Shown here in pieces: positions 11,769 through 50,490 of a stretch of DNA of 56,062 nucleotides. The position numbers and the translations under genes are program-made. Each line of letters begins with the position of its first letter. The stretch's first letter is position 1. The stretch comes from Deltaproteobacteria bacterium. GTDB taxonomy: Bacteria > Myxococcota_C > UBA6777. The stretch is taken from assembly GCA_002731275.1 (NCBI GenBank), contig PCBK01000034.1:1-56062 (forward strand), given 5' to 3'. The notes under the pieces were generated by a model. The model was not told where the DNA came from. It did no database searches and worked only from the letters and a program-made list of their open reading frames with translations.

Positions 11769-14700
11769 ATGCTCGGAAAGTTTTTGGAGGCAGGTTTACA
11801 GGTTGCGCTTCAAATTCCCCAATTTAAGCTAGGGGGAGGCAAAGATGAGAACATCTTTAGACTTCTCCATGACCATTTTTACCAATCAAGTCATGCTCTT
11901 GGGCAATCCTTTCAGCGCTCCTACCACAAAAGCATGATGGTGATCGCAGCGGCTCTTGCGCCTCCAACTTTTTACAAGACAGCCTGGACGACATTTGATT
12001 CGAGGGTGACAAAAGAAGCCGATCAACTTATCCAAACGCGCTACTTTACAACTTTTTGTGAGCGCGAGGGTCTCCTTGAAGAAGTCGATAAGAAGACATT
12101 TTGTAAACAAGCGATCAAGACTTATCGACAAGCTGCAAAACGCGCTGAAGAACTCTTTCCTCTCGGACAATTCGATGAACCCAAACTTCGTGATATGCTC
12201 ACAAATACAGAGGATTCCGAGGAACTCGGAAGAATCCTCTTGTCATCTATTCAAAATGAGATCAAGGATAACACACAGTTTAAGTTTTTAGCTTATGAAG
12301 GCCTACTCTTGCAGATGGTTTTCTTCTTTTTTCAGGAGGAGCTTAGGCGAGAGCCCAAAGTGGAGGTGATGTTGAACACTCTCCAGCAATCTGGTCTCAG
12401 GAGTGATATTCGCGATGTGGAGACAGCACGGCAAGTGTCTTCAGCGGCAATCGAGTCCCAACTCGCCGAGGTGAATGATCAAATCGGAAAGCTCCAGCGA
12501 CGTCTTACGCAAGAGACGGATGCGATGTTCATCCATATGATGCAGCAACAACGTGATCTGCTACAGGCAAAACAAGAAGCCTATCAGGAAGAGCTACAAG
12601 CTCTCTCTACGCAGCTCCAACAAGCCCAGCAACAATGGGAGATGTTTGGTCAAAAGCTCGACACCTTTCGAGGGGAGTTTGGTGAGTGGTGTGGGATGGT
12701 CGCCTCGCATATCTCGGAGCTTGATGCGAAACTCGACAAGGCGCTCTTGATTCTTGAAAAGGAGATCAAAATACTTCTTGGTGAGATTGGGGGTGATGTC
12801 AAAACCCTGATCAAACAAGTGCAGGCGATGATGAACCACATGGGGTTGGGCTCGCAAGTCTCGATCCGACACGAATTCACCATTCACACCAACACCAACG
12901 TGGAGCTGATCAGGCAGGCCGCTGAACGTCTCGAGAAGACGCCAACTTCGACAAAGGAGTTCAGTCATCTGGCGATCCAAATTGGTAGCGCGCTGTCTTC
13001 AACGGGAGAGCTTGCGTGGGCCAAGAAGTATTTTGATCGTGCGTATATGAGCGCAAAAGAACACGGTGACGATAAGTACTTGGCGCTCGCTTCATACAAT
13101 CTTTTTCAGGTCGAGCTTCGACAGGGAGCCTACGAAGATGCGTTGAAGGCGCTTAAAGAGTCGATGCAACTCGATCCAGCCAACTACATGCTGTTTAATG
13201 CCGAAAAATACCATCCTTTGAAGATATTAGGTGCTGGTGGGATGGGATGTGCCTTCTTGTGTCGAGATGTTTTTCTCGACGAACTCGTTGTCATCAAGAC
13301 TTTTTGGAACCCCAAAAAAGGTTCGCTCAAAGAGGTCTTCAACGAAGCGTTTATTATGAGGAATGTCGACGTGAAAGGTGAGTTTATCCCTCGCCCCTTG
13401 CACATCGACTACGCAAACAACCAGACCAATGAGCGTCCGTATATTATTATGGAGTACATCGCGGATGCGATCGACGGCGAGGACTTCCTTGTAAAGTATG
13501 GTGCTCTGGAACTCTCCGAGGGGATTGGCCTGGGGGTGCAGGTTGCCCGTGCGCTCCATAAGGCACATCAAAAACATATCTACCACCTCGATCTCAAACC
13601 CTCTAACTTACTCTTACGTCGTGACGAAGAAGGCAAACTTCACTTCAAGATTATCGACTTTGGTTTGGCCCGCGCAGGCGTCTCCTTGCGGATGGAGGCC
13701 GCGAAGCAAAGCCATAGCGCGAGCGGTATGAGCCTCTTTTCACGTAATGTCTTCGGAACACTTGATTACTCTCCTCCTGAACAAAGAGGGATGATCGAAT
13801 ACGGAGAACCCGGTCCAAAAAGCGATATCTTTGCCTTTGGCAAGACGCTTTATCGACTTTTGAGCTTTGAACCTCCTCAACAACTGTTCCCCGATCCGCT
13901 CGAAGACAATATGCAGCTGTATCAACTCTTGCTGAGATGTGTTCGGCCACAACCTGCACAGCGTCCTGCATCAGCCGAAGAGGTCGCGAACGTGCTCGAA
14001 GAGATTTTGCACTCTTTGAAGCCTGATACGTCAAGTGTTAGGATCTCCGAACCTCTTCGGTTATTACTTGAGCAAGCGTTCGATGACAAGCTCCTCGAAG
14101 AGACTGAAGAGGACATGTTGTGGACTGTTGCTCGTGGGTTTGGTGTCGCCCTTGATGACTTTCAGCAGCTTATCGATGATTGGTTACGTGAGCACAAAGC
14201 CCGCAGACAGGTTGCGCTCAGGATCCAGGCCTGGATGTCGACGCAAACACCCCAACGCTTCCATATCCACGTTCTTTGGGGGGCTGTTAGCGAGGTATAT
14301 CCAAAAGATTACACTCTGGATGGATGTCGAAGGCTCCCGTGGCTGACACCTTCGCAAATCCTCAACGCTGATCCGAAGTTCCTAACAGATGACGAGGTAC
14401 ATTATTGGTTCTCCGAGTGGGAGCTGCCGACGATGGAGCAAAAGCAGAAAGAAGGGGAAGACAGCTCCTCTGAGTTTGTGCCGTTTATACCGGACTCTTT
14501 GACTGTTGATCGATTTGTAAAGTATATCGCGATTGAGTACGGTATTTGGGTTCAGCCACGTGACCCAGAGACTGATACGCCCGCGATACCCTCTCTTACA
14601 CTGTCTGAATGTCGGGCAAAGCTGCCCCAAGAGGGGGAGTTTAAGCCACATGGTGTCAACCGTGTCGCCAAAGTAAAGAAGTCTCTTGAAAAGTTGACAG

Positions 14701-16658
14701 GGCTTAAGCTGTGCATCCTTGATCCTGAAGGACAACCTGCTGAGGAGAATGCGAGACTCGCACAAAATTATATCACTGGAGGCAAGTGGCTCTCTGGAAT
14801 GGGCGAGATGGTTTTCTTTTGGCTCAAACCTCCACGTAAAGGAAAAGACCCTATATGGAAGAGGAATGGTTATCTTAGTTTTGGGAAGCACTTCTCTTGG
14901 CTCTTGGAGGGAGAAGATGCTCCGATCTTTATCCAGTCTTCAGAAGGGCACTTTCACGCAAAGATCTATCGATCAAAGACGCGCTTTGCGAACCTCTCCG
15001 AACTTTTTGGAGCGCATCCCACATTGGAAGCCGGGGATGTTGTTTGTTTGACACATCATGGGAACAATATTTTCACCTTTGATGTGTTTCCACAAGACGG
15101 TGAAGCAGGAACAAAGCTCGATATTCTCGATACTGTTGCCCCAGATTTCGATGTCGATTTTCCACCCATCCAAGAGGAGGTTGTTGTGGAAACGCTGGCA
15201 GATGTTTCATCAGAGGACGAGCTGGTAGTTGAAGATGAAGATGAGTCCGAAGATGAAGATGAGTCCGACGAGTCTGAAGATGACGAGGAAGAGAGTACGG
15301 AAGAGGACTTGAAAACGGTGGAGGCCGCAGAGGAGATTCACGCTGAAGCACCAGATGCGCTCGAAGGAGAGGGAGCACAAGAGCGCATGAAGGTCTCGCG
15401 TTTTGTGCGTGAGTTTGCGATTGAGCATGGTATCTGGTTCGATATGATGGACCCAGAGACTGAAGTGGTCGCTTCACCAAGTGCTTTTGTCGAAGACTTA
15501 CGTGTGCAAGAGCCTGTCCCCATGGAGTTATCTTTTCACGGTCGCAACCGAATCAAAAAGGTCCGCAATCGGATGAAGAAAGCCACTGGTTTGATGGTGC
15601 AGGTTCGCTCTGGAGACGGTCGTCTCGCGTCAGATGACGAAAAGCTCGCGATGCACCGTCTCCACGGTAATTCCTTTCTCACATTGATGGGAGAGAGTGT
15701 CTTTTTCACACTCAAACCAGCCATTGCTTCCTCAAACGGCATTCCTTCTTGGCGCAAAAATGGTGTCCTGTCTTTTGGCTCTTTGAAAGAGCGCGTTTTT
15801 CCCGAACAAGAGCCTGGACCGATTGTCGTCGAATGTGAGCATGGGTCGTTTGAAGGGGCACTCTCTCGGAAGTCGAACAGGTTGAAAGGGTTGAAGAAGT
15901 TGTTTGCCTCTTTTCCGGAGCTCGAAGTCGGCGATGTGGTGTGTGTGACCCGTGTTGACGCGGGTGTCTTCACGTTGGAGACATTCTTGCGTTCGACCGA
16001 AGAGGACGTGGAAGAGCTCGAAGAGATTGTCGAAGATGATAGCACGACAGCTGACTATGAAGTGTTTGAATCTGACGAAGAAGAGGAGACTTACGTTGGA
16101 CAAGAAGCTGTCGTGGTCCTGGAGAAGGAGGCTGGAGACGATTCATTGGCCTTACTCGTCGAGAAGGCCAAGATGTATTTGGGAGCAGGGAAGATCCAGG
16201 ATGCGCTTGCCTGTTACGAAGCGATGCATCTTTACCACAGAGATGTGGTAGATGAAGAGGCTGAGCTTTCTCGTCGTGTGGCTGCGGCGTTGTTGTATAA
16301 GCAGGGGCTTGAGTTGCTAGAGTACGCGCCAGAACAAGCGTTAAACAAATTTGAAGCTTCCTACGCGCTTGATCCCGAGTTTTTCCCCAAAGAGATTATG
16401 CGGCAGATGACGACGCTGCGCGAGGCGAAGGAGAAACAGCGAAAGGTTCGTTTTATCGGGCTTTGTCGCGAAGGGCAACACCTCTCCAAAACAGACCCTG
16501 CGCGTGCCCTTGGTAAATTTAATTTGGCGTATCGTCTTGCACCACAATTTTGGACAGAGAATCACACGAAGTGGGTACAGTATCTTCAGAAACTTGTAGC
16601 GCTTCAAAAAGAACGAGCCCAACATGACTCTGTGAGACATCTTGAGCAGCAATCTTGA
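11769..16658 (+). CDS. Giant Ser/Thr protein kinase with coiled coil, TPR-like repeats and a tandemly duplicated unknown domain
   Basis: A 1629-residue multidomain protein. Residues ~1-215 are an all-helical domain I do not recognise; ~220-305 a Gln-rich coiled coil; ~395-475 TPR-like helices (ending YEDALKALKESMQLDPAN). Residues ~480-750 are a Hanks-type kinase with glycine loop GAGGMG, lysine in VVIKTF, catalytic HLDLKPSN (Leu where HRD kinases have Arg) and DFGLA. Residues ~910-1110 and ~1207-1410 are two copies of one ~200-residue domain sharing RFV-x5-IE-x-GIW, DPET, KRNG/RKNG-LSFG and EAGDVVC/EVGDVVC patterns, joined by a linker almost entirely Asp/Glu/Ser. The last ~170 residues are TPR-like. 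No membrane segment is seen, so it is probably cytoplasmic. GGAGGTG precedes ATG 11769. It appears monocistronic; substrates are unknown. Confidence 0.88.
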   Translation: MLGKFLEAGLQVALQIPQFKLGGGKDENIFRLLHDHFYQSSHALGQSFQRSYHKSMMVIAAALAPPTFYKTAWTTFDSRVTKEADQLIQTRYFTTFCEREGLLEEVDKKTFCKQAIKTYRQAAKRAEELFPLGQFDEPKLRDMLTNTEDSEELGRILLSSIQNEIKDNTQFKFLAYEGLLLQMVFFFFQEELRREPKVEVMLNTLQQSGLRSDIRDVETARQVSSAAIESQLAEVNDQIGKLQRRLTQETDAMFIHMMQQQRDLLQAKQEAYQEELQALSTQLQQAQQQWEMFGQKLDTFRGEFGEWCGMVASHISELDAKLDKALLILEKEIKILLGEIGGDVKTLIKQVQAMMNHMGLGSQVSIRHEFTIHTNTNVELIRQAAERLEKTPTSTKEFSHLAIQIGSALSSTGELAWAKKYFDRAYMSAKEHGDDKYLALASYNLFQVELRQGAYEDALKALKESMQLDPANYMLFNAEKYHPLKILGAGGMGCAFLCRDVFLDELVVIKTFWNPKKGSLKEVFNEAFIMRNVDVKGEFIPRPLHIDYANNQTNERPYIIMEYIADAIDGEDFLVKYGALELSEGIGLGVQVARALHKAHQKHIYHLDLKPSNLLLRRDEEGKLHFKIIDFGLARAGVSLRMEAAKQSHSASGMSLFSRNVFGTLDYSPPEQRGMIEYGEPGPKSDIFAFGKTLYRLLSFEPPQQLFPDPLEDNMQLYQLLLRCVRPQPAQRPASAEEVANVLEEILHSLKPDTSSVRISEPLRLLLEQAFDDKLLEETEEDMLWTVARGFGVALDDFQQLIDDWLREHKARRQVALRIQAWMSTQTPQRFHIHVLWGAVSEVYPKDYTLDGCRRLPWLTPSQILNADPKFLTDDEVHYWFSEWELPTMEQKQKEGEDSSSEFVPFIPDSLTVDRFVKYIAIEYGIWVQPRDPETDTPAIPSLTLSECRAKLPQEGEFKPHGVNRVAKVKKSLEKLTGLKLCILDPEGQPAEENARLAQNYITGGKWLSGMGEMVFFWLKPPRKGKDPIWKRNGYLSFGKHFSWLLEGEDAPIFIQSSEGHFHAKIYRSKTRFANLSELFGAHPTLEAGDVVCLTHHGNNIFTFDVFPQDGEAGTKLDILDTVAPDFDVDFPPIQEEVVVETLADVSSEDELVVEDEDESEDEDESDESEDDEEESTEEDLKTVEAAEEIHAEAPDALEGEGAQERMKVSRFVREFAIEHGIWFDMMDPETEVVASPSAFVEDLRVQEPVPMELSFHGRNRIKKVRNRMKKATGLMVQVRSGDGRLASDDEKLAMHRLHGNSFLTLMGESVFFTLKPAIASSNGIPSWRKNGVLSFGSLKERVFPEQEPGPIVVECEHGSFEGALSRKSNRLKGLKKLFASFPELEVGDVVCVTRVDAGVFTLETFLRSTEEDVEELEEIVEDDSTTADYEVFESDEEEETYVGQEAVVVLEKEAGDDSLALLVEKAKMYLGAGKIQDALACYEAMHLYHRDVVDEEAELSRRVAAALLYKQGLELLEYAPEQALNKFEASYALDPEFFPKEIMRQMTTLREAKEKQRKVRFIGLCREGQHLSKTDPARALGKFNLAYRLAPQFWTENHTKWVQYLQKLVALQKERAQHDSVRHLEQQS

Positions 16659-17970: not shown

Positions 17971-20900
17971 ATGATCGAACAAAGCGAAGAGCTCTTTTAT
18001 CAACTGAGGGGATTAGGGATGTGTGGCACGGTGTTGCATATTGGTGCTCACCCCGATGATGAAGAGATAGGCATGCTTTCCTACCTGACCCGTAAGTTTG
18101 GTGTTCGGGTGGTGTATTGGTCGGCGACGCGTGGTGAAGGTGGACAAAACAAAGCAGGACCATATACAGGTGATGGGCTGGGTATTTTCCGGACATGGGA
18201 GAGCGAAGAGGCGCGCAAAGAAGACGGAGGCGAGTGTCTTTTTGGACCTTTTGTCGACTTTGGTTTCTCCAAACATGGACAGGAGGGCTTTGATCGATGG
18301 GGGAGAACAGCCTTGGTGCGCGAGCTCGTACGGGCTATTCGCATGTCTCAGCCTCATATCGTAATCTCACGATGGACGGGAACACACATCGATGGACACG
18401 GACATCACGAGACAGTCGGGCAGGTCACAGAAGAAGCTTTTTATGCGGCGGCAGATCCCACTCAATTTCGAGAACTTGAAGCACAAGGTCTATACAGTTG
18501 GCGACCTCTCAAGCTCTATCTCTCTGAGATGAAGATCGGACATATTATGCCCGGGACGGTCCATCTGTTTGGTGCGTATCAAGAAGAACTAGAACGGCCG
18601 GGCGTTGTTCGTATTAACTGTGGTGAGTATGATCCTGTCTCAGGAAAAACATACCAGGAGCGCGCATGGTTAGCATATAACAAGCACCGCTCACAAGCGA
18701 TGGGATGGCTCCCCGAGCCAGGGGATTTTTACTATTACTTTAGCTTGCTGAAGAGTCTTATCCCCGTCCCTGAGAAAGAAGAGACTTTTTTCGAAGGGTT
18801 TGATCCTACGATAACAGGGCTTGCGACTTTGTGTGAAGGCGCTAAAGATGACACAAAAGCTGCGATTGCCGAACAACTCACACTGGCAAAGTCCTCTCTT
18901 CAGGTCGCGCTCGAAAACTTCCGCAGCAGTGATCCTCTCGACACAGTCATGCCACTGCTCGATGCTCATATCGCGCTTAAAACGACACAACAACTCATCT
19001 CCAACAACCCGACCCTGGATGATGACACCAAAGGTAGCGTCCTCTATTACCTGGAGCAGAAAGTGACGGCGCTGGAGGCTGTCACGATCAATTGCCTCGG
19101 CTTACAACTCGAAGCTCTTGGACCCCATCCTCGCACGACTCCTGGCGCAGCGCTGACTCTTGATATGCGCTTGTGGAATCATAGACACATTCCTCTCAAT
19201 AAGATCGCCTTTGACCTACAGGTTCCAGAGGGTTGGGATTACGAAGCGCGTGACGCTGTGCAGAGTCATTCTTCGAACTCAAACCGTCAGACCTTTGATG
19301 TCCAAGTCGCGAAAGACGCTGAACTCAGTTGTCCTTATTGGTTGTCAAAACCACGTGTGAATCCAAATGTCTTCGAGTGGCCGGAGGGAGAACCGAGCGG
19401 TCGTCCGATGGAACCCGCTCCTGTTATCGCCCACTGTGAGGTGATATACAAGGGGCATCATTTACATATGCAACAGGCATTCTCCTGTCGTGAGGCGTTC
19501 CCCGGTGGATTTCGAGAGCTGGCGGTCAAAGTTGTGGCTCCAATCTCTCTTACACCCAACACAAATCTCGAACTCCTCGCATGTTCATCTTCTGAACAAG
19601 TCCAGAGACTCCACATTCATGTTGAAAATAATAGATATGAAACGACAAAGGGCGAACTTTCCATTGTTGTTCCTCCTCATTGGAGAGTCGTTCCAGAGCG
19701 TCTGCCCGTTCAATTTGAAACCTGTGGTGAGAGTCAGAATGTGGCCTTTGATGTGCATATTCCAGGGGGGACATCTCCAGGGGATTACACTGTTGAGGTG
19801 CATCTTGACAGTGAAGGTCGAACATATCGGACATTTGCAGAGCCAGTGCGGATGGCGGCGCCTGGGCTGACTGAGCACTCGGCGAGTAAGTGTGTCGAAG
19901 AGACATTTATCCTGACGACGGCTGATATAAAATTCTCTATCCTGGATATCCGTTTTGTCTCCGGCTTGCGTTACGCTTACCTCGAAGGAGTGACCCAAAA
20001 GATCACAGATGTCTTGGAGGCTTTTGGTATCCGATGCGAAAAGTTGACGGATCGAGAGCTCGCGACAGTTGAGCTCAGTGTGTACGACGCGATCATCGTT
20101 GGTCAGAACGGGTATCTGGTCCGCGAAGCCATCAAGAAGTATGGACAAAGACTGCTCGATTATACATTCAATGGTGGCACGTTAATCGTCGAATTTCAGG
20201 GGTACGCATATCAAAATCAAGAGAACGCGCCGTATCCCTTTACATTCACGAAGCCACGGGATCGGGTTGTCAACGAGAACGCCGAGGTCACGTTGCTCAA
20301 CCCCGAACACTTTCTCTTTCAGTATCCAAACCAGATCACGAGCGAAGATTTTGAACGTTGGGTGACGGACAGAGGGCTCTACTTTTTTGGAGAGTGGGAC
20401 TCTCGCTACACGCCATTGATGTCTTGCGCAGACCCCGGAGAATCCCAGAAAGAGGGTGGGTTGTTGCTCGCTCATTATGGGAAGGGGACATTTTTGTACA
20501 ACGCCTATTCATTTTTCCGGCAGCTTCCTGCGGGGGTTCCGGGAGCGTTGCGTTTGTTCGCCAACATCTTGGCGCTCCCAGATGCCCGCATTCGAGAACG
20601 GATGAAGGTTTTGCAGAGTGTCGATATCTTCGAATCTCTATCCGAGACAGAGTTACGCGCAGTCGCACGGCAGGTGTCGGAAAGATGGGCCGAGCAAGAT
20701 GAAATCATCTGTCATAAGGGCGATCAAGGTGACTCCTTGTACATCGTTTACGCCGGCGCAATTGATATCGTCAACGAGGAAGGGCGCGTCGTGTACTGTG
20801 CAGGGCCAGGCGAATGTATCGGAGAACTTGCCGTCTTGTGTGACATCCCTCGTACCGCGATGATGAAAGCCCACAGGCAAACACAACTCCTCGAACTCAA

Positions 20901-21003
20901 AAGGGAGTCCGTCAACGCTCTGCTCGATCTCTATCCAAAGATGGCCCGCGAATTTATCCAAGTGCTTGTGCACCGTTTGTACGTCTCAGGAGATGACAAG
21001 TGA
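17971..21003 (+). CDS. PIG-L (BshB-like) N-acetylglucosaminyl deacetylase fused to a C-terminal cyclic-nucleotide-binding domain
   Basis: A 1010-residue fusion. Residues ~18-250 are a PIG-L zinc deacetylase: the HPDDE motif is at about 26-31 and the matching HIDGHGHHETVG motif near 140, so zinc ligands are intact. In the bacillithiol pathway such enzymes (BshB) deacetylate GlcNAc-malate. The middle (~380-650) contains beta-rich segments resembling NEW3-type accessory domains, then a GATase-like region (~660-860). Residues ~880-1000 form a CRP-type cyclic-nucleotide-binding domain with a phosphate cassette (GECIGELAVLCDIPRTA). No signal peptide is visible. It is the first gene of the operon; its stop overlaps the next GTG start by four bases. 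Allosteric control by cAMP or cGMP is an inference. Confidence 0.85.
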   Translation: MIEQSEELFYQLRGLGMCGTVLHIGAHPDDEEIGMLSYLTRKFGVRVVYWSATRGEGGQNKAGPYTGDGLGIFRTWESEEARKEDGGECLFGPFVDFGFSKHGQEGFDRWGRTALVRELVRAIRMSQPHIVISRWTGTHIDGHGHHETVGQVTEEAFYAAADPTQFRELEAQGLYSWRPLKLYLSEMKIGHIMPGTVHLFGAYQEELERPGVVRINCGEYDPVSGKTYQERAWLAYNKHRSQAMGWLPEPGDFYYYFSLLKSLIPVPEKEETFFEGFDPTITGLATLCEGAKDDTKAAIAEQLTLAKSSLQVALENFRSSDPLDTVMPLLDAHIALKTTQQLISNNPTLDDDTKGSVLYYLEQKVTALEAVTINCLGLQLEALGPHPRTTPGAALTLDMRLWNHRHIPLNKIAFDLQVPEGWDYEARDAVQSHSSNSNRQTFDVQVAKDAELSCPYWLSKPRVNPNVFEWPEGEPSGRPMEPAPVIAHCEVIYKGHHLHMQQAFSCREAFPGGFRELAVKVVAPISLTPNTNLELLACSSSEQVQRLHIHVENNRYETTKGELSIVVPPHWRVVPERLPVQFETCGESQNVAFDVHIPGGTSPGDYTVEVHLDSEGRTYRTFAEPVRMAAPGLTEHSASKCVEETFILTTADIKFSILDIRFVSGLRYAYLEGVTQKITDVLEAFGIRCEKLTDRELATVELSVYDAIIVGQNGYLVREAIKKYGQRLLDYTFNGGTLIVEFQGYAYQNQENAPYPFTFTKPRDRVVNENAEVTLLNPEHFLFQYPNQITSEDFERWVTDRGLYFFGEWDSRYTPLMSCADPGESQKEGGLLLAHYGKGTFLYNAYSFFRQLPAGVPGALRLFANILALPDARIRERMKVLQSVDIFESLSETELRAVARQVSERWAEQDEIICHKGDQGDSLYIVYAGAIDIVNEEGRVVYCAGPGECIGELAVLCDIPRTAMMKAHRQTQLLELKRESVNALLDLYPKMAREFIQVLVHRLYVSGDDK

Positions 21004-22175
21004 ATATCGGAATGATGTGCCATTCCAGCCTGGGGGGGAGCGCCCGGGTGGCCACGGAACTTGCGATGATGTTGGTCCAGAGGGGCCACAAGGTGTGGAT
21101 CTTTTCGAAAACACCGCCTGTCACACAGCTTATGCGACATCCCAATCTGCGTCTCTGCTCGCTCCTGCCGATACCTGACGACACATACGATCATGCTGTT
21201 TTGCGTACTGAGTGGAGTGCAGACGAGCAGGAAGTGTTTGTGCAGAAGTTGTGTGCAGCGATCCGCAAAGAACGCATCGAGCTGCTACATTTTCACTACG
21301 CGCTTCCTTTTGCGGACATCGCAAAACGCGTGCGAGAGCGCCTTGGTTTCGTGGGGCCGAAGATTGTTGGTACGCTCCATGGTACAGACGTGACAAAGCT
21401 GGCAAAGGTACCTTCTTTGGCCAAGCAAGTGGGCGAAGCGTTGGGAACTGCTGACGTTGTCACGACGGTCTCTCATGCACATGCCAGGCTCTCACAGATG
21501 TATCTGCCGACACTCACTCCCCCCATTGTGATCCCGAATTTTATCGATGTGCAGCGCTTCTTTCCTTCTTTACGACGTGCTCAAAACCAACCTCTTGTCG
21601 TGCTCCACGCTTCCAATTTCCGAGCGATCAAGCAGCCTCTGGTTGTCGCGAAGATCTTTCTGGGGTTGCAAGAAAAGCTAAAGGCCGATGTCCAATTGCA
21701 ATTGATGGGGACAGGGCCTGAATTACACAGTACGATTGACTTTCTCAAGCGGGCAGGGGTGGGAGATAAAGTCAAAGCGCTGGGGTTTCGTACCGACGTG
21801 ACGGGCGCTTTTCAGGAGGCTGACCTTGTCGTGATCGCGAGTCAATATGAGAGCTTTAGTCTCGTCGCGCTCGAAGCAATGGCGTGTGGTACACCTGTCC
21901 TTGCGCCTGCTGTCGGTGGTATCCCTGAAGTCGTCAAAAATGGCGATACTGGAGCCTTATACAGACCCAATGACATCGATGAAGCTGTCCATCAAGGCGT
22001 CGGCCTGTTGTCCTGCCAGCGAGGTCGTGAGCGTCTTCGTTGGCTCTCAGCACTTCACGCCCGTGACTTCGACGCGGAGCGAGTGATCCCACAATATATC
22101 GATATATATCGACATCTTCTTGCTATTCGGGAGCCTCTACTGGCTTCGTCACCCATTGTCGTGGAGTCTGTTTGA
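21000..22175 (+). CDS. bshA: GT4 glycosyltransferase, BshA-like (GlcNAc-malate synthase of bacillithiol pathway)
   Basis: A 391-residue GT-B glycosyltransferase. It matches BshA, which joins GlcNAc from UDP-GlcNAc to L-malate as the first step of bacillithiol synthesis. From memory of Bacillus BshA, the shared blocks are GGSA-x3-ATEL near the start, the HYALP motif, TLHGTDVT, the NFID loop, HASNFRAIK, and the donor-site run ESFSLVALEAMACGTPV followed by GGIPEVVKNG. Length matches the family. The start is GTG 21000, within the preceding gene's stop (GTGA), with AGGAG seven bases upstream. The following gene starts on its stop (TGATG). Being between a PIG-L deacetylase and a BshC-like protein strongly supports the assignment over a generic GT4. 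Confidence 0.85.
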   Translation: MNIGMMCHSSLGGSARVATELAMMLVQRGHKVWIFSKTPPVTQLMRHPNLRLCSLLPIPDDTYDHAVLRTEWSADEQEVFVQKLCAAIRKERIELLHFHYALPFADIAKRVRERLGFVGPKIVGTLHGTDVTKLAKVPSLAKQVGEALGTADVVTTVSHAHARLSQMYLPTLTPPIVIPNFIDVQRFFPSLRRAQNQPLVVLHASNFRAIKQPLVVAKIFLGLQEKLKADVQLQLMGTGPELHSTIDFLKRAGVGDKVKALGFRTDVTGAFQEADLVVIASQYESFSLVALEAMACGTPVLAPAVGGIPEVVKNGDTGALYRPNDIDEAVHQGVGLLSCQRGRERLRWLSALHARDFDAERVIPQYIDIYRHLLAIREPLLASSPIVVESV

Positions 22176-23332
22176 TGAGGGCCCTTAGCCAACTTTTACA
22201 CAGTCCGAAAGATCTCGATTTTTTACAAACACGTGGCGTCTTTGTCGAGCTTGAGACGTTTTTGTCGGAGCTGAAGCCTGTAACTCTTTGCTCTACACTT
22301 CGTCCTCTTGAGACGTCCGAGGATACACCCAAGCGTCAGCTCGTGTGGGCAGGGCAGCAATTGTACGTCGATTACCGGTGCTCTGTCGTCAGCAAGTTGC
22401 TCCTCCTGGACGCGCTCAATCATCAGCCCGGCGTGACGCCTTTTTTTGTCGGTGCGGATACGGATCGTTCAGGCTCTGACAAGGCGATTACGACGATTCA
22501 GTGGCCTCTACCTGACGCCGTTGGTAATATCCGGGTCGCTGCACCGCGTGCCGCAAAGCATACGGAGACGCGTTTCGTGATGAGCGCGTTTGCACAACGG
22601 CAAGAAGCGATGCGCAAGCTGGAGATATATCTTCGTCAAACGGTCGAGAACTTTCAGGCTGTGGCGTCTCGCTTTGAACGCCTCAAGCAGATCTTCCTCG
22701 ATGAAACCGAGATGACCCTCGCAACATTAAACGCAAAGATCACACGCTTGTTGATGGATCACCTGCGATTGCGACTTCCTCTGTTTTTCCTCTCGTCATT
22801 TTTAGAAGATGGGTGTCTAACGGCGAGTCTCAATCAGTGGCTTCGTCATCGAGACGCTTGTATTGCCGCATTTAACGAGGCTATCGATGAGTTGAGGCGA
22901 TATGATATCAATCCTGTGGTCAAGCCATTGCCGGAAGATTACCTGCCGCTCAATTACTCATGCCCTGAAGATAACTCACGATGCAGACTCTCCTACGAAC
23001 GACAAGGGAACGAGCATTTTGCTGTTGGCAAGAATCGTGCGGGGAAAGTGTATCGTTTCTCTTTGGGGCAGGGGGAATTGTCTCTTGATGAACTCGATCA
23101 GACAGGGCGTTGGAGTCCTGATGTTTGTTTTCCGGTCTTTTTGAACAGGCATGTTTCAGGCTGTGTTGTGGGGAAAAGTTCGGCTCTGTATGGTCTGGTG
23201 ATGAACCGGGTGCTTGAAAGAGGACTTGGTGAGCGCCCTGTTCCCATGATTATCCCCGATCTTGTCGAGGAGATTGAGATACCGTCACATGAGAGTGTGT
23301 TGTTTGATTATTTGACCCAGACGACACATTGA
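22175..23332 (+). CDS. Short BshC-like protein (putative cysteine-adding enzyme of bacillithiol pathway)
   Basis: A 385-residue protein that I assign tentatively to the BshC family, which attaches cysteine to glucosaminyl-malate. Support comes from three places. An early VWAGQQLYVDYRCSVVSKLL block parallels the GQQ-x-G-x4-YK signature of BshC. VTPFFVGADTDRSGSDKA sits where BshC has its PVFW-x3-EDHD segment. A late block (WSPDVCFPVFLNRHVSGCVV then ERPVPMII) parallels BshC's LRPVVQD and PMVLPR region. A helical stretch (~135-215) fits its coiled coil. BshC is usually ~540 residues, so this is markedly shorter, and some motif residues differ. ATG 22175 overlaps the bshA stop (TGATG). The family call rests on patterns plus operon context; a structural search would settle it. 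Confidence 0.62.
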   Translation: MRALSQLLHSPKDLDFLQTRGVFVELETFLSELKPVTLCSTLRPLETSEDTPKRQLVWAGQQLYVDYRCSVVSKLLLLDALNHQPGVTPFFVGADTDRSGSDKAITTIQWPLPDAVGNIRVAAPRAAKHTETRFVMSAFAQRQEAMRKLEIYLRQTVENFQAVASRFERLKQIFLDETEMTLATLNAKITRLLMDHLRLRLPLFFLSSFLEDGCLTASLNQWLRHRDACIAAFNEAIDELRRYDINPVVKPLPEDYLPLNYSCPEDNSRCRLSYERQGNEHFAVGKNRAGKVYRFSLGQGELSLDELDQTGRWSPDVCFPVFLNRHVSGCVVGKSSALYGLVMNRVLERGLGERPVPMIIPDLVEEIEIPSHESVLFDYLTQTTH

Positions 23333-23420
23333 TCCAAACACAAGGAAAGGAGAGGCATCCTTCCTTTCGTGGCTCGACACGCAGCGCCGAACCACAAGGG
23401 GCTTGCTGCCTTTGTGTCAC

Positions 23421-25643
23421 ATGAAAACGAAAACCACCTCTGTCACTCCAAATCACTCATCTTTGCTTCAGGATATGCTTGCGGGGCCGATCGTTGCGGT
23501 TCTTTCGGCGGGCTTGATTTCGGGGATCATCACGACGATTTTTACGATCTCGCTTGTCAGCTTGATCTTTAGCGGTAAGCTCGCGAAGTTTGTCCCCTAC
23601 GGCGTCGGTTGGTTTTTGGTGGGGGCTGTGGTGCTAGGGCTGTGGATCGCGCTCTCTAGCTCCTACCGAGGGAACGTCGCATCTCCACAAGGCAAGCCCG
23701 CGGTCGTGTTGGTCTTGTCGGCGGCGGCGATATCGGCGAGTGTGAATGCCGTGCAATTGCTGCCAACAGTCTGTATGCTCATCGTCGTGACGTCTCTGGT
23801 GACGGGGATCTGCTTGTATTTGTTAGGTTACTTTCGGATGGGGAACCTGACGCGATTTATCCCTTTCCCTGTGATCGGTGGATTCCAGGTTGGGACGGGT
23901 TGGTTGATCGTCGTCGGTGCGTTCTCCGTGCTCACTGGACACAAATTGAGCATCGCGAATCTCGCGACCTTGTCGACGCCGGAAATGCTTTGGAGGTGGG
24001 TCCCTGCTTTATTGTATGCCATCGTGATGTTGTTGGTGTTGCGTTACAAAGCTCACTTTATGTCGTTGTTTGTGTTGTTACTGGGAGGGATCCTCTTGTT
24101 CCACCTTGTCGTGTGGGGGATGGGGGCATCGTATCTCGAACTTCGTCAGGCTCGGTGGCTGTTGGGTCCTTTTCCAAAGGGGAGTTTGTGGCAGCTTCCG
24201 ACGATGCAACATGTCTCTTGGGGGGCGATATCTTCTCAGACACCGACGATTCTCGTTGTCGTCTTATTTGCGGCGACGGACGTGTTGTTGAACGCTGTCG
24301 CAATTGAGGTCGCGACAGAAGAACGACTCGATTTGGATCAGGAGCTGAAGTCAACGGGCCTTGCCAACTTTGCATCTGGCTGGGTTGGAGGACTGACCGG
24401 TTACTGTGCGATCAGTTTATGTTTGCTCAACCATAAGATCGGCGCAAGTAGCCGATTGACTGCTGTGATGAGCGCTGTTGTCTGCGGGGTCTTTTTGCTG
24501 TGGGGGATCCCGCTGCTCGATTATTTTCCCGTGCAGGTGTTGGGTGGACTGCTTTTGTTTATTGGTTTCTCCTTCATGAAAGAGTGGTTGTGGGGAGGTT
24601 GGTCTCGTCTTCACACGATTGACTATCTCTTGTTGCTCTTGATCCTCGTCTTCATCGCGAGCTGGGGGTTTCTCGAAGGAGTGAGTGCTGGGCTGCTCAT
24701 CGCAATGGCGATCTTTATCGTCAATTATAGCCGGACCAACGTGATCAAGTTGGAGCTTTCTGGAGCTGAGCTTCGTAGCAATCGAGAACGTCGCCCTGAA
24801 GAAACTCTCGTGTTGGACGAGAAAGGTCAACAGATCCACGTGATGAAGTTACAGGGATTTGTGTTCTTTGGGACTGCCAATCATTTGCTCGAACAGTACA
24901 GGGATTTGTTTGAAACAGAGACTGGACGCAAGCTTCCTCTTCGTTTTGTGATCCTCGACTTTCGTGCGGTTACGGGGATCGACTCATCGGCGACAGCCAG
25001 CTTTCGTCAGATGATTCAATCTTCTTCTGCCTATGAAACCCAGCTACTTTTTGCGAACGTCTCCGAAGATATCGGGCGTATTTTGGACGCACAGGGGCTG
25101 CGGGCCACCACACTCTCGCTGCTGGGTGACAAAACCCATCTCAACGATTGTTTGGAGTGGTGTGAGGAGCAGCTTCTCCTGGAAGCCAGTCACACCGCCC
25201 CAAAAGAGCACTCCTTCGCGTTGGTGCTGGCGGACATGTTTCGGGAGGAAGATGTCGAACATTTCCGCGATGTGCTCATTCGCAAAGAGTTCGCAGAAGG
25301 TGAAGTCCTTTTCACGGAGAACGCAGAGAGTGACGCGTTGTACTTTATCGAAAAAGGTCAAGTCGCTGCCTGGATCTCCAATCCATTTGGTCAGCAAGAG
25401 AGGATTCGGAGCTTTGGTGTTGGCGCGATTATCGGTGAAATGGGTTTGTACACACAGGCACCACGCTCTGCGACTTTGATCGCCGTCGAAGACTCCGTAT
25501 TGTTCCTCCTAACAAAAGAAACCCTCGATCAGCTCGAAAAAGAGCAGCCACTGTTGGCGAGTTCATTTCACCATTATATAGCCCGCGTGTTGGCCGAACG
25601 TCTGGGACAGGCCAACAATGTACTCAAATTTTTGCTCAAGTGA
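23421..25643 (+). CDS. SulP family anion transporter with STAS and C-terminal cyclic-nucleotide-binding domain
   Basis: A 740-residue inner-membrane transporter. About residues 20-440 hold 10 or more hydrophobic segments with SulP landmarks (RFIPFPVIGGFQVGTGWL; ELKSTGLANFASGWVGG). A STAS domain follows (~470-570; LRFVILDFRAVTGIDSSA). Residues ~605-735 are a CRP-like nucleotide-binding domain with an intact cassette (GAIIGEMGLYTQAPRSA). SulP proteins move sulfate, bicarbonate or C4-dicarboxylates. In this operon sulfate (for cysteine) or malate (BshA substrate) would both make sense, but the substrate cannot be read. Start is uncertain: ATG 23421 has no ribosome site, and TTG 23403 is possible. 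It lies 88 bases after the BshC-like gene and 14 before the next gene. Confidence 0.88.
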   Translation: MKTKTTSVTPNHSSLLQDMLAGPIVAVLSAGLISGIITTIFTISLVSLIFSGKLAKFVPYGVGWFLVGAVVLGLWIALSSSYRGNVASPQGKPAVVLVLSAAAISASVNAVQLLPTVCMLIVVTSLVTGICLYLLGYFRMGNLTRFIPFPVIGGFQVGTGWLIVVGAFSVLTGHKLSIANLATLSTPEMLWRWVPALLYAIVMLLVLRYKAHFMSLFVLLLGGILLFHLVVWGMGASYLELRQARWLLGPFPKGSLWQLPTMQHVSWGAISSQTPTILVVVLFAATDVLLNAVAIEVATEERLDLDQELKSTGLANFASGWVGGLTGYCAISLCLLNHKIGASSRLTAVMSAVVCGVFLLWGIPLLDYFPVQVLGGLLLFIGFSFMKEWLWGGWSRLHTIDYLLLLLILVFIASWGFLEGVSAGLLIAMAIFIVNYSRTNVIKLELSGAELRSNRERRPEETLVLDEKGQQIHVMKLQGFVFFGTANHLLEQYRDLFETETGRKLPLRFVILDFRAVTGIDSSATASFRQMIQSSSAYETQLLFANVSEDIGRILDAQGLRATTLSLLGDKTHLNDCLEWCEEQLLLEASHTAPKEHSFALVLADMFREEDVEHFRDVLIRKEFAEGEVLFTENAESDALYFIEKGQVAAWISNPFGQQERIRSFGVGAIIGEMGLYTQAPRSATLIAVEDSVLFLLTKETLDQLEKEQPLLASSFHHYIARVLAERLGQANNVLKFLLK

Positions 25644-25657
25644 AGGAAGGTTGTACC

Positions 25658-27160
25658 ATGTCGTCATTTTCCGTTGTGATATTTGCCTCCGAAAATATGA
25701 CACGCCGCTATCCAATGCGTTGGTTGCGGATCGCTCTTTGCAAACAATTACTCTCTTCCGAACACATTGAGATCAAAGGGCTCTTTATTGATCGTCCTCC
25801 TGCGGCGCCTGCCAAAAGCTTGGAGCGTTATAAGAAAAAATACGGTGAAGAAGCGTTTTATCAATTTTTGGAGCTGCAAGCTCTTGAGCCATCGGACACA
25901 GAGACACCATTTTCGTATGTCGATGCCTGTCAGGCCTTGGACATTCCTTGCTATGAGATGGATCTCAATTCGGATGAGACTCACGCGCTGCTCACGGAGC
26001 TTCAGCCTGATCTTGGGGTTTTGTTTGGTTGTCGGATCTTGCACGAGTCGATCGTCGATGCCCCGACCTTTGGGACGCTTAATTTTCACGCAAGAGATGC
26101 TGAGAAGTTCCGTGGAGGAGGTGCTCTGGGGTACTGGGAGCTGCTCGAAGATGAGCGTGATATCCAGATCACGATCCACCGTGCAGTGGCGAAGGTCGAT
26201 GCTGGACAACTCCTTACGACATCTCGTCTTGAGATCGAGCCTTGTGACACACTCGAAAGTCTCCTGTTAAAGACGGTCATCCGAGGCGTCGATGTCTACG
26301 CGCAAAGCATCATTCGTTTTGCCGAGGGACATCGAGAGATGAGTCCACAACAGACGGAACAGGCGAAAACATATCGACGTGACCTGCTCGCAGAAACTTT
26401 CTTTCGTAAAGAGCGCCAACAAGTCCTCTCCCAAATGGATCGTTATCGGGATAAAAAACTTCCGGAACTGTGGGCTCCTGCCCCCAAACAAGTGACACCT
26501 ACACAACCTACAGTGTTTATCTTGTCCTACCCGCTCATTGCCAATCATCCGAGTCATCCGACAAACATCCCGTACGAAGTGTTCGTCGGTCAATTGCAGT
26601 GGCTTCAACGTTACTTTCGATGTATTTCGTTGTCGGACGCCTTGAAGCAACTTCGAGGAGAGGATGTGCCCAGCGACAATGGGATCTCCTTTGTGCTTAC
26701 ATTGGATGGAGGGTTTGCGCAGGATAGTGTCGTGGTCCTTCCTTTTCTTCGTGCTTTCGAGCTACCTGCGACGTTGCTTGTCTCTCCTCAGTCTATCGAA
26801 GACTCTAGAACAATGTGTGGACAAGCGCTCTTCGAGTGGGAGGCTCTCTATGCGGAGGTCGAGCGTGCTAGTTTGGATGTTGGGTTGCTCTCACCGACAC
26901 ACTTTGATCATGAACAACTCGATTCATTCGACTTTGTAGGTGAGCAAACGTTGTTGGAGAGTTGGCTTCGTCGCAAGTGTGAGGTCGCAGCGCTCCCGTA
27001 CAAATGCAACAAGGACATACCCGAAGGGCCAGGAATATGGCTTCGCACTCATGAAGCACCAAATACGCCAGCGCATTTTGATGGGCGTCAGTTGGCTCGT
27101 ATCGTTGCGCCTTCGTCTGTTGGGGAGCTTGCTGAGAGGATCGAGGGGATGTTCTGGTAG
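25658..27160 (+). CDS. Formyltransferase domain fused to a degenerate NodB/polysaccharide deacetylase-like domain
   Basis: A 500-residue fusion. Residues ~1-230 follow the 10-formyl-THF-dependent formyltransferase fold: the catalytic Asn and His are in GTLNFHARDAEKFRGGGA and the aspartate in AKVDAGQLL, so this half looks active. Residues ~285-490 resemble a NodB deacetylase. However, the TFDDG metal motif reads TLDGG, losing the second Asp, and the usual S-H-x3-H motif keeps only its second histidine (LLSPTH), so deacetylation is doubtful. AAGGAAGG seven bases before ATG 25658 sets the start. It is 14 bases behind sulP, so likely the operon's last gene. A plausible role is N-formylation of an amino sugar; the link to thiol synthesis is only positional. 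Confidence 0.8.
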   Translation: MSSFSVVIFASENMTRRYPMRWLRIALCKQLLSSEHIEIKGLFIDRPPAAPAKSLERYKKKYGEEAFYQFLELQALEPSDTETPFSYVDACQALDIPCYEMDLNSDETHALLTELQPDLGVLFGCRILHESIVDAPTFGTLNFHARDAEKFRGGGALGYWELLEDERDIQITIHRAVAKVDAGQLLTTSRLEIEPCDTLESLLLKTVIRGVDVYAQSIIRFAEGHREMSPQQTEQAKTYRRDLLAETFFRKERQQVLSQMDRYRDKKLPELWAPAPKQVTPTQPTVFILSYPLIANHPSHPTNIPYEVFVGQLQWLQRYFRCISLSDALKQLRGEDVPSDNGISFVLTLDGGFAQDSVVVLPFLRAFELPATLLVSPQSIEDSRTMCGQALFEWEALYAEVERASLDVGLLSPTHFDHEQLDSFDFVGEQTLLESWLRRKCEVAALPYKCNKDIPEGPGIWLRTHEAPNTPAHFDGRQLARIVAPSSVGELAERIEGMFW

Positions 27161-35950: not shown

Positions 35951-36565
35951 CTTGGAAACTCCGTTTCGTTTGGGTGTAGAGCTTCCCTGCATCGCAATCC
36001 GCACGGGTGCATGTCTTGTTTGTGTGGTGGAGCTGGTGTGGATTGGATGGGGGAGGCTGACAAAGAGATGAGTGGGTTGTGGATCCGTGCCCTGAAAAGT
36101 CGCGCATATGTTTGGACTTTTTACTTTTTGAGATGACGGGCATGTCGACGGACGACGCGGATCATCTGGACTCACACGTATGGGGTATCAGCACATCATT
36201 CCCATCACTGAGAGTTACATGAACTCAGTGACGTTTTTCTCGACTATCAAAGTCGGAGAAACAGATGCGCGATCCATTTGTGGAGGGATAACTCATCACT
36301 CTCCCAGGCCTCCTATGTTGTTGGATCTCGACGATCCTGTTGGGTTGAGGGGGGACGCAGATCTTTACTTTGGATCTTGCGTTTGCAGTCAACATACGTG
36401 TGAAGGTGTTGTGGGGTTCATTCTTTTTCTCTCCACTGGCCTGAGGTATGGCTTGACGTTCGCTGGTCTTTTCTCTACCATCAAGGGCCATTGAACTGGA
36501 AACCAAGAGAATGAGCCGATTGAAGCGATAAAGTGGGCTTTTGAGAAAACGGAGGTGTGAAGCTG
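35951..36565. other. Intergenic region between divergent genes
   Basis: A 615-base gap between the small basic protein (left-reading) and the Arg/Tyr-repeat lipoprotein (right-reading), so it should hold both promoters. I see no supported gene. One hairpin, CACTGAG-n11-CTCAGTG at 36206-36230 followed by ACGTTTTT, looks terminator-like on the plus strand, although no plus-strand gene ends before it. Confidence 0.45.
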
Positions 36566-38152
36566 ATGGCCGCGCGTGCGAAGATGATATCCAGGATATG
36601 TTTGGTCCTTTTGTTGGGGATCGTTGTAGGTTGGGGGTGCGACAGTAAGCCCACAAAAGGCATTTTTCGACTGAAGGTCAAAGTGGCGAATATGGAGGGA
36701 CAAGGAATCGCTGACGCAAAGATCATGGTCAATGGCGAATCCGTAGGTTCGACAGATGAGACTGGTGCGTATCTCGGGAGTATCAAGGGCTCCGTGAATG
36801 CCAAGGTCAAGATCACCATCTCAAAAGGTGTTTCGAAGACGACAACCACCCAACGCCTCAAAGCCAAAAAGATCAAGGGACGTTGGCGTACTGTAGACGT
36901 TATCGTCGATACGACCATCGACGCAGCGTCCTCGGCACCTCCTGTTGCTGCTGCGGAGCCGGTCAACGTCGATGCAGGCGAACCCAAAACTGACGTTGTC
37001 GATCCTCCTGTGCGACGTCGTGTTGTTGAGCGACGTAGAGCACCTGTTTATAGAAGACGATATGTCCCAAGACGTCGATATGTCCCAAGACGTCGATATG
37101 TTCCAAGACGTCGATATGTTCCAAGAAGGCGTCGTGTGATTGTCAGACGATATGTCCCAAGACGTCGAATCGTTGTCAGAAGATTTGTCCCAAGACGTCG
37201 AAAAGTTGCGATGGTCCGTCGGATTGTCCCGCCACCAGTGAGACGGGTTATTGAGCGTCGTTTGCCACCTCCGCCACGTATCGATCGCCGACCTCCTCCT
37301 CCCCGCGTGAGCGCAAAGAAGGTGCTCAAGTTAAAGCCCAAGTGTCTTCGTCGGTATCGTCGCAGACGTTCTCGTGTTGTGTTGTTGACGGCGACTGCTG
37401 GGACGACCCTTCGTTTGAAGGGAGACCACTGTAACGTGTCGTTGGCGAAACTTCGCGCAGGGCAAGTGATTGAGATCAAGCTGCCTGTTGGGCCATTTCA
37501 TCGAATTAACGCGACAAAAGGTAGCTTGACACAGAACAAGGTCTTTCAAGTCAGCTCTGGCTCCAGACCCAAGAAAATCCACATCAGTATGGGGTCTTCT
37601 GGGTGCAATATCGCGACCATTATGAAAGATATCCAGCGCGGACGTAGCGTCTCTTCTAGCAAACTGTCTTGTCTGACCAAGATCAACTACGGTCAACCCA
37701 AACATCTCGACGCACATCTCTCCGCAGCAGGGTACTACTGCAAGAAAAAGCGATACCCACAAGGCAAGATGCTCTTGAAGAAATTGACCCGATACCCGAA
37801 GTACAAGTTCCGTCCGTACTCCGCGATGAAGCTGGGTGTCTATCTTGGGCGTTGCAAAGATTACAGAAATGCCCTGCAGATGCTGCGAAAAGTTACACGG
37901 ATGACGATGCGCTTCAGCAGCCGCGATCGCTATCGCAACACCAAGGCGCTGTATCGAGCATTGGCACAGCTTTACGAGCAGAGCTTTTACCGCACGAAAA
38001 ATGCCTTGGACCTGACCAGAGCCGTGAAAGCCCAGCAGCGACTTGTTGACATCGTTCGCTCATCAGACAGACGCGAGAAGTCTCGCGCGCGCAAAGAACT
38101 CAAGCGATACAAAAAGCTCGCGAAAGAGAAAGGTGCACTCGAAACGGAGTAG
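36566..38152 (+). CDS. Arg/Tyr-repeat lipoprotein
   Basis: A 528-residue predicted lipoprotein. The signal (CLVLLLGIVVGWGC) ends in a cysteine, although Trp at -2 makes the lipobox unusual. A carboxypeptidase-like beta domain follows (~25-105; GQGIADAKIMVNGESVGSTDETGAY). Next comes a strikingly basic repeat region (~140-240) built on RRRYVP hexapeptides, then a Pro-rich stretch, a PEGA-like beta segment (~265-330) and a TPR-like helical C-terminus (~375-528). GGAGG lies ten bases before ATG 36566; a GTG at 36557 is too close to it. The repeat lies between ordinary domains, so it may be an electrostatic tether to an acidic polymer such as LPS or DNA; this is speculation. Confidence 0.78.
   Translation: MAARAKMISRICLVLLLGIVVGWGCDSKPTKGIFRLKVKVANMEGQGIADAKIMVNGESVGSTDETGAYLGSIKGSVNAKVKITISKGVSKTTTTQRLKAKKIKGRWRTVDVIVDTTIDAASSAPPVAAAEPVNVDAGEPKTDVVDPPVRRRVVERRRAPVYRRRYVPRRRYVPRRRYVPRRRYVPRRRRVIVRRYVPRRRIVVRRFVPRRRKVAMVRRIVPPPVRRVIERRLPPPPRIDRRPPPPRVSAKKVLKLKPKCLRRYRRRRSRVVLLTATAGTTLRLKGDHCNVSLAKLRAGQVIEIKLPVGPFHRINATKGSLTQNKVFQVSSGSRPKKIHISMGSSGCNIATIMKDIQRGRSVSSSKLSCLTKINYGQPKHLDAHLSAAGYYCKKKRYPQGKMLLKKLTRYPKYKFRPYSAMKLGVYLGRCKDYRNALQMLRKVTRMTMRFSSRDRYRNTKALYRALAQLYEQSFYRTKNALDLTRAVKAQQRLVDIVRSSDRREKSRARKELKRYKKLAKEKGALETE
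37058..37129 (+). repeat. Four tandem 18-bp in-frame repeats (RYVPRR)
   Basis: Unit CGATATGTCCCAAGACGT, four head-to-tail copies with one C/T change in the third and fourth. Each codes RYVPRR within the lipoprotein. Degenerate copies continue to about 37200. Near identity suggests recent expansion by slippage or unequal exchange. Confidence 0.9.
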
Positions 38153-40079: not shown

Positions 40080-40571
40080 CTATCTGAGTTTTCGAATGAT
40101 CTTCGCTGGAACACCTGCGGCGAGTGTGTCTGCCGGGATGTCTTTACTCACGACACTTCCTGCTGCGATGACCGCGCCCTGTCGGATATGTACGCCTGGC
40201 AATACGATCGAACGGGCACCTAGCCAGACGCCATCCTCGATGCAAACGTCTTGTGAGACATGTTGGTGAGCAGGGTATCTTTGCTCGATATCCAGACCCC
40301 CTGTCAGGACCATAGAGCCGTAAGAGAGCGTGACATCTGAGCCTATGTTAATCTGGGCGCCTTCACAGGATTGAAGCAGCACCAACTCGTTGAGTGTCAC
40401 ACGATCACCCAGGGATATGTGATGTGCGTCCATGATGTAGACTGGCATACAAAATTGGCAACCTGTGCCCAGCGCTCTTAATTGTGTTGCGAACCACACT
40501 CTATAACATCGACGCTTTGCGCCTCTGACGAGTCTGAGTGTGTGTCGTGCGATGTGTTGTGAAAGAGACAT
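40080..40571 (-). CDS. Left-handed beta-helix O-acetyltransferase
   Basis: A 163-residue hexapeptide-repeat acyltransferase (maltose/serine acetyltransferase or WbbJ type), likely acetylating a sugar of the surface polysaccharide using acetyl-CoA. Repeated [LIV]-G-x4 turns run through ISLGDRVTLNE, INIGSDVTLSYGS and IEDGVWLGARSIVLPGV. The C-terminal GSVVSKDIPADTLAAGVPAK cap is the classic ending. Its ATG overlaps the stop of the upstream glycosyltransferase (TAATG), so translation is coupled. An in-frame start nine bases earlier is possible. Confidence 0.92.
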   Translation of the reverse strand: MSLSQHIARHTLRLVRGAKRRCYRVWFATQLRALGTGCQFCMPVYIMDAHHISLGDRVTLNELVLLQSCEGAQINIGSDVTLSYGSMVLTGGLDIEQRYPAHQHVSQDVCIEDGVWLGARSIVLPGVHIRQGAVIAAGSVVSKDIPADTLAAGVPAKIIRKLR

Positions 40572-41782: not shown

Positions 41783-41805
41783 CCTTTAGGCTTCTCCATA
41801 AGGCC

Positions 41806-41905
41806 GTTGGGTGAGAAAAAGTCTGCTCCTTGTCAATATGTCGTATAGAATACATATGTGTTTACAAAATATCACACCCTCCTCACATCTTTTTTTCACC
41901 CAAAC
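41806..41905. repeat. Small inverted-end repeat family D, copy 2
   Basis: A ~100-bp element with imperfect inverted ends (GTTGGGTGAGAAAAAG at 41806; CTTTTTTTCACCCAAAC at 41889-41905) lying in the promoter region between two divergent glycosyltransferase genes. Read on the minus strand it shares GTTTGGGTGAAAAA and the 17-mer AGGGTGTGATATTTTGT with 33358-33390. Confidence 0.55.
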
Positions 41906-42012
41906 AGATCGACATGTGAGTGTGATAATGTTCTGCTTCCATAGAAACATAGAAGACTACATTCTTTTGTCGGTTTTTCCTTGCTGTGGCCCAATCTTTA
42001 TCAGGAACCATT

Positions 42013-43164: not shown

Positions 43165-43180
43165 AGATGTCAGCGCGTAG
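43143..43180. terminator. Bidirectional terminator-like hairpin at convergent gene ends
   Basis: CTACGCGCTGACATC (43143-43157) and GATGTCAGCGCGTAG (43166-43180) are perfect 15-base complements around an 8-base loop; the stem extends further with one mismatch. One arm lies in the last codons of the right-reading glycosyltransferase, the loop holds its stop, and the other arm fills the 20-base gap before the convergent stop. No T-tract follows on either side. Confidence 0.7.
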
Positions 43181-43184
43181 AGTG

Positions 43185-46252: not shown

Positions 46253-46310
46253 GGTTACGAACCTCTCTTATGTGAACTCTTCTTTTCCACTTTGCGACGA
46301 TACTCAGCCT

Positions 46311-46420
46311 AGTGGTTCTCTCGCGAAAAGGACATGGAATATTGAGGTCGGACACAAGGACCGACCCTACGGAAGAAATGCAACATCATGCTCATGCGCT
46401 TACTTCGCGAGAGGACCACT
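46311..46420. mobile_element. MITE-like repeat family A, copy 2
   Basis: A 110-bp copy of family A: AGTGGTTCTCTCGCGAA at 46311-46327 and TTCGCGAGAGGACCACT at 46404-46420 (one mismatch between ends). The internal hairpin GGTCGG / CCGACC is perfect here. Its last base is the third base of the wecB stop codon read on the minus strand (TAA, 46422-46420), and its other end is 58 bases from the asnB start. Confidence 0.85.
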
Positions 46421-48791: not shown

Positions 48792-48792
48792 G

Positions 48793-50478: not shown

Positions 50479-50490
50479 GTCGATCTAACC

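Follow-up and report, generated by a model that had tools for sequence, protein, structure and literature searches.

Can the synthesis of a protective thiol and the import of an anion be placed under one second messenger? This question is raised by five adjacent genes at positions 17971-27160 of a contig of 56,062 nucleotides (PCBK01000034.1, assembly GCA_002731275.1) from a deltaproteobacterium of the lineage Myxococcota_C. We call the whole contig the window; it is contig 39 of the 200 that make up the 10.75 Mb host genome. Bacillithiol is a protective small molecule, and its BshA-BshB-BshC pathway occurs in Bacillota, Bacteroidota, and Deinococcota. An initial annotation read the first three genes as the three steps of bacillithiol synthesis, and assigned nucleotide-binding domains to the first gene and to a downstream transporter. 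The five genes lie on the same strand and are as follows, each with the source of its assignment:

17971..21003, + strand: long PIG-L (LmbE-like) hydrolase of 1010 amino acids (aa), ending in a cyclic nucleotide-binding domain (CNBD); Pfam, NCBIfam
21000..22175, + strand: BshA-II, a divergent N-acetylglucosaminyl L-malate synthase-like glycosyltransferase of family 4 (GT4), 391 aa, GTG start; TIGR03999, tree, PDB matches
22175..23332, + strand: ORF3, a compact remote BshC relative, 385 aa (longest frame from 22172, ATG at 22175); hhalign
23421..25643, + strand: SulP-STAS-CNBD anion transporter (longest frame from TTG at 23403, ATG at 23421); Pfam
25640..27160, + strand: protein with a formyltransferase-like N-terminus and a degenerate polysaccharide-deacetylase-like C-terminus (likely ATG at 25658); Pfam

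The tight coupling of the first three genes, by overlaps of 4 bp and 1 bp, is as first described: the PIG-L gene runs into the BshA-II gene through GTGA, and the latter into ORF3 through TGATG. The ATG of the SulP gene follows ORF3 by about 90 bp, and the fifth gene overlaps the SulP gene or nearly so. The genes would presumably be transcribed together. A promoter scan gave no useful signal (6 hits, with 6.9 expected). Terminator-like hits were more numerous than in shuffled sequences (20 against 11.0) but mostly intragenic, and no Rfam element was found in the window.

The host genome also contains, on contig 2, a complete canonical operon; neither this operon nor the fifth window gene figured in the initial annotation, which was made from the window letters alone. 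The canonical operon consists of bshC, bshB1, and bshA (419.6, 258.9, and 436.5 bits on their profiles), followed by a long PIG-L gene and a sodium symporter gene. The same gene order is found in a relative of the host (G003), and a further genome (G002) carries bshC, bshB1, bshA, and a partial long PIG-L gene in this order. The bacillithiol-type operon of the window is therefore a divergent second set, additional to the canonical one. Like the canonical system, it has a BshA-family glycosyltransferase, a BshC-related gene directly 3' of it, and a gene of the PIG-L superfamily alongside. Unlike the canonical system, it has no BshB1, and its PIG-L protein is fused to a CNBD. The tetranucleotide profile of the operon fits that of the host contigs (r of 0.94 to contig 2), thus contamination or recent foreign DNA is an unlikely origin and was rejected. 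The homologies are firm; we infer a bacillithiol-type product and a control by cyclic nucleotides.

The assignment of the second gene to the first step of the pathway is well supported. BshA-II scores 258.1 bits on the BshA equivalog model TIGR03999, just below its cut-off of 273.7 bits. Its relatives from two sponge 'Candidatus Entotheonella' metagenome-assembled genomes (MAGs), OX639990.1 and OY282375.1, score 286-287 bits, above the cut-off. In a tree with seven GT4 outgroups BshA-II falls inside the BshA family (support 99/98), where it forms one clade with the two Entotheonella proteins (100/99), apart from the canonical BshA of its own genome. It matches BshA sequences from the PDB at E of about 1e-50. 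The stretches HYAxPxA, HGTDxT (more precisely HGTD(V/I)T), NFRxxK, and ESFxLVxLEAMACG agree with those of solved BshA sequences, so L-malate is the likely acceptor.

The third gene is not recognised in Pfam, NCBIfam, or a profile search against PDB sequences. A profile-profile comparison by hhalign of ORF3 and its two Entotheonella relatives, the three sequences of this family found here, with an alignment of 28 BshC proteins gave a score of 63.0 (E 9.7e-8, 281 columns). Controls stayed far lower: at most 21.7 in 30 column-shuffled BshC profiles, 20.6 for the reversed profile, and no more than 22.1 when five unrelated families were compared. Taken singly, all three sequences also match the BshC profile (E from 7.8e-5 to 5.6e-6). 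The three proteins retain the P.F strand, the RxRL hairpin Arg, a glycine of the final Rossmann-like part and, from the GQQ motif, QQ; the G of this motif is present in the window protein alone. Since the match lies far above the controls and yet the C-terminal region is absent, ORF3 is, as judged by these profiles, a remote, compact homologue of BshC and not BshC by its defining model. The BshC-like assignment thus stands as remote homology, while identity with BshC does not.

Among the 386 sampled genomes ORF3 was found in the host and the two Entotheonella MAGs only. It was not found in four other genomes of the host's family, and no relatives occur in the scanned viral contigs and plasmids; short, stop-ridden matches in two further genomes (G108 and G123) were discarded. 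In both MAGs, which belong to a distant phylum, ORF3 co-occurs with a long PIG-L gene and a bshB1 gene. The OX639990.1 cluster (L018) comprises BshA-II, a PNPOx-like protein, BshB1, ORF3, and a divergently transcribed long PIG-L. The OY282375.1 cluster (L047) comprises a long PIG-L, SulP, ORF3, BshB1 (279 bits, above its cut-off), and a PNPOx-like protein. With the window operon these clusters have in common ORF3, the BshA-II type, a long PIG-L that lacks a signal peptide and, in OY282375.1, a SulP gene adjoining ORF3; they differ from it by having their own BshB1. Neither MAG has a BshA above the cut-off other than the type-II sequence. OX639990.1 (G099), a single contig estimated to be 92% complete, gave no BshC match at E<=1, unlike the window host. 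Because of this lack of a canonical BshC, ORF3 appears to be the strongest candidate for the absent final ligase, in OX639990.1 at least. As a separate observation, a PNPOx/Nim-like flavin protein is conserved next to the bsh-type cluster in both MAGs (L018 7721-8371; L047 10895-11545).

We therefore consider that the window may encode a second, divergent bacillithiol-type pathway beside the canonical one. BshA-II would join UDP-N-acetylglucosamine to L-malate. Removal of the acetyl group would fall either to the canonical BshB1, acting in trans, or to the long PIG-L protein of the operon itself, and ORF3 would couple cysteine, or another amino acid, to the resulting glucosaminyl-malate (GlcN-malate). 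SulP would import sulfate or another anion. Through the CNBDs on PIG-L and SulP, a cyclic nucleotide might tune turnover or deacetylation jointly with anion uptake. We put the probability of this reading, with the steps as proposed, at about 50%.

Several observations weigh against it. ORF3 has no match to the BshC model TIGR03998 (cut-off 265.8 bits). It does not clearly retain the residues at the EDHD, R-P, and E346 positions, where the alignment is uncertain by a few residues, and the protein ends where the BshC C-terminal region with the conserved PxxxxQER would start. An AlphaFold2 model made from the three sequences has a mean pLDDT (predicted local distance difference test) of 43.7, too poor for fold searches. 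The PIG-L protein scores 29.1 bits on BshB1, 12.5 bits on BshB2, and 27.4 bits on the amidase Mca, all far below the respective cut-offs of 182.5, 195.25, and 277.15 bits. SulP adjoins ORF3 in two genomes only. Finally, the Entotheonella PIG-L proteins have no CNBD and the cassette of the Entotheonella SulP is degenerate, so by this comparison the control by cyclic nucleotides is not conserved across the system and, if real, would be a feature of the window lineage.

On the role of the PIG-L protein the initial annotation is not supported. Pfam finds in it a PIG-L domain (residues 22-156, E 6.6e-15), a NEW3 (NPCBM_assoc) domain, and a C-terminal cNMP_binding domain (residues 905-986, E 2.4e-16). 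Its LmbE-like metal site (HxDD and a distal His, the site being defined as in PMC4101496) is intact, with AHPDDE and DGHGHH aligned to other long PIG-L proteins. However, by profile it does not qualify as BshB, and it belongs to a long family that adjoins a separate, true BshB1 in contig 2, G003, G002, and Entotheonella. Probably, therefore, the second step is provided in trans or catalysed by another enzyme, and the claim that all three steps of bacillithiol synthesis lie in one operon is not demonstrated.

The PIG-L protein may instead be an amidase, or else a substitute deacetylase. If it were a bacillithiol-S-conjugate amidase (Bca/Mca-like), the operon would serve thiol turnover and detoxification: BshA-II and ORF3 would remake the thiol, PIG-L would cut conjugates, and SulP would move sulfur-containing anions. 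The neighbourhood of BshB1 speaks for this, as do the profile scores of most of the long PIG-L proteins tested, which are slightly higher on Mca than on BshB1: 50.5 against 29.2 bits for the contig 2 homologue, 31.1 against 26.2, and 44.3 against 15.9. On alphaproteobacterial plasmids, moreover, the long PIG-L sits with importers and an ArgH-like lyase in what looks like a catabolic setting. The long family thus leans, weakly, towards thiol-conjugate amidases by sequence. On the other hand, every Mca score is far below the cut-off and the window protein scores about equally on both models. Compared with Mca/Bca amidases of about 280 aa, it shares the HPDD and distal His of the PIG-L domain, but is a multidomain protein of about 870 aa with the CNBD added. 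As a BshB1 is missing from the window operon, its PIG-L may have assumed that step. We hold the amidase explanation to be a real possibility, to be entertained tentatively.

Long PIG-L genes were also observed on three plasmids (L112, L113, and L114, from Thalassospira, Parasedimentitalea, and Aminobacter), beside a ROK regulator, a sugar ATP-binding cassette transporter, and a lyase of the ArgH/fumarase superfamily; a sugar kinase is present in two of these three loci. They could be scavenging loci, in which bacillithiol would be cut to GlcN-malate and the latter split to glucosamine and fumarate.

CNBDs are sensor domains of a kind that binds cyclic AMP (cAMP) or cyclic GMP (cGMP). Their presence on both the PIG-L and SulP proteins was correctly recognised from the start: both exceed the gathering score of PF00027 (59.9 and 68.8 bits; threshold 27.5), and both phosphate-binding cassettes, GELAVLCDIPRTA in PIG-L and GEMGLYTQAPRSA in SulP, are intact and retain GE(L/M)...PR(T/S)A. 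No signal peptide was seen in the window PIG-L or in those of Entotheonella, which fits a cytosolic CNBD; the long PIG-L of contig 2 has an N-terminal hydrophobic stretch resembling a signal peptide. Class III cyclase domains are encoded in five genes of the genome (six hits), and roughly 22 further CNBD stretches were found, which makes a signal by cAMP or cGMP plausible.

The arrangement had been presented as undescribed for a bacillithiol system. Among the homologues examined, none but the window protein showed the PIG-L-CNBD fusion; the plasmid search used the part of the protein without the CNBD. The SulP-STAS-CNBD architecture, in contrast, is common and widespread. The window SulP has Sulfate_transp (113.2 bits), STAS (43.3 bits), and cNMP_binding (residues 628-711, E 4.2e-19) domains. 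Seven plasmid records align over at least 80% of its length, the five best at 34-36% identity. The relatives from Gloeothece, Kovacikia, and Caballeronia align over more than 90% of the length at this identity, and by Pfam the Gloeothece protein has the same domain set, including the CNBD. What is unusual about the window SulP is only its place next to bacillithiol-type genes. For fungal SulP-like proteins, too, a domain legend names a CNBD (PMC5541321).

It is quite conceivable, if not what we expect, that the CNBDs are structural or sense a ligand other than cAMP and cGMP, so that there is no shared control by a second messenger. The transporter architecture is common and has no known gating here, and the genome has many other CNBD stretches. 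Moreover, the C-terminus of the OY282375.1 SulP (gene at L047 6578-8743) aligns with the window CNBD and has lost the Glu and Arg of the cassette; it is apparently a decayed sensor domain. Against this stand the good PF00027 scores of the window domains, their retained Glu and Arg, and the cyclase genes of the host. The literature retrieved, judged partly on titles and the openings of abstracts, held nothing relevant on a connection of bacillithiol with cyclic nucleotides or with Entotheonella.

The reading of a second bacillithiol-type pathway also depends on what ORF3 couples. With another amino acid or another acid, the product would be a non-thiol GlcN-malate conjugate, for example a secondary metabolite. 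The loss of several conserved BshC residues and of the C-terminal region would suit such a change, as would the presence of a canonical BshC in the host and of a formyltransferase-like gene at the operon end. However, in OX639990.1, with no BshC match, ORF3 has a true BshB1 and a BshA as neighbours, in keeping with ordinary bacillithiol synthesis, and the SulP neighbour suggests sulfur. We regard the non-thiol product as unlikely.

That the operon is a decaying, functionless duplicate is very improbable: the complete canonical operon, the conserved residues lost from ORF3, and its absence from the other four genomes of the family would agree with decay, but all frames are open across 9 kb with tight overlaps, catalytic and cassette motifs are retained, and genes of these divergent types are found again in another phylum.

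The membership of the fifth gene in the bacillithiol-type system is uncertain. Pfam reports Formyl_trans_N at 32.3 bits, and a weak PgaB match covers residues 307-381. The N, H, and D of the usual formyltransferase triad are visible in its N-terminal part, and the TFDD motif of the C-terminal part is degenerate (TLDG). Identification through plasmid relatives was unproductive, since the formyltransferase part alone matches. Elsewhere in the window, positions 11769-16658 encode a protein of 1629 aa with a central Ser/Thr kinase domain and acidic stretches towards the C-terminus, and an open frame of 531 aa at 36557-38152 has no Pfam match at E<=0.001. Positions 40571-54724 hold a probable surface-polysaccharide cluster. 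Besides several glycosyltransferases and a WecA-like protein of glycosyltransferase family 4, it encodes proteins resembling asparagine synthase and heparinase as well as an ADH/GFO-IDH-MocA fusion.

The novelty of the window operon lies in the divergent BshA/BshC-like pair and in the PIG-L-CNBD fusion. In its widest form our proposal would be that ORF3 is the founder of a family of compact BshC-type ligases, which takes the place of BshC in Entotheonella and makes bacillithiol or a similar compound in concert with BshA-II and a long PIG-L; in the window organism this would take place beside the canonical pathway and under direct control of cyclic nucleotides through the CNBDs on the hydrolase and the transporter. 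So extended, the proposal is doubtful. We know of no cyclic-nucleotide-gated step in low-molecular-weight thiol metabolism, and such a step would be new. The surveys of bacillithiol that we found define its producers by orthologues of BshA, BshB, and BshC (PMC6282198, PMC12719100). If ORF3 does the job of BshC, orthologue-based surveys overlook producers such as the Entotheonella symbiont OX639990.1. The ligase core would then work without the C-terminal region of BshC, which would bear on the mechanism of BshC itself.

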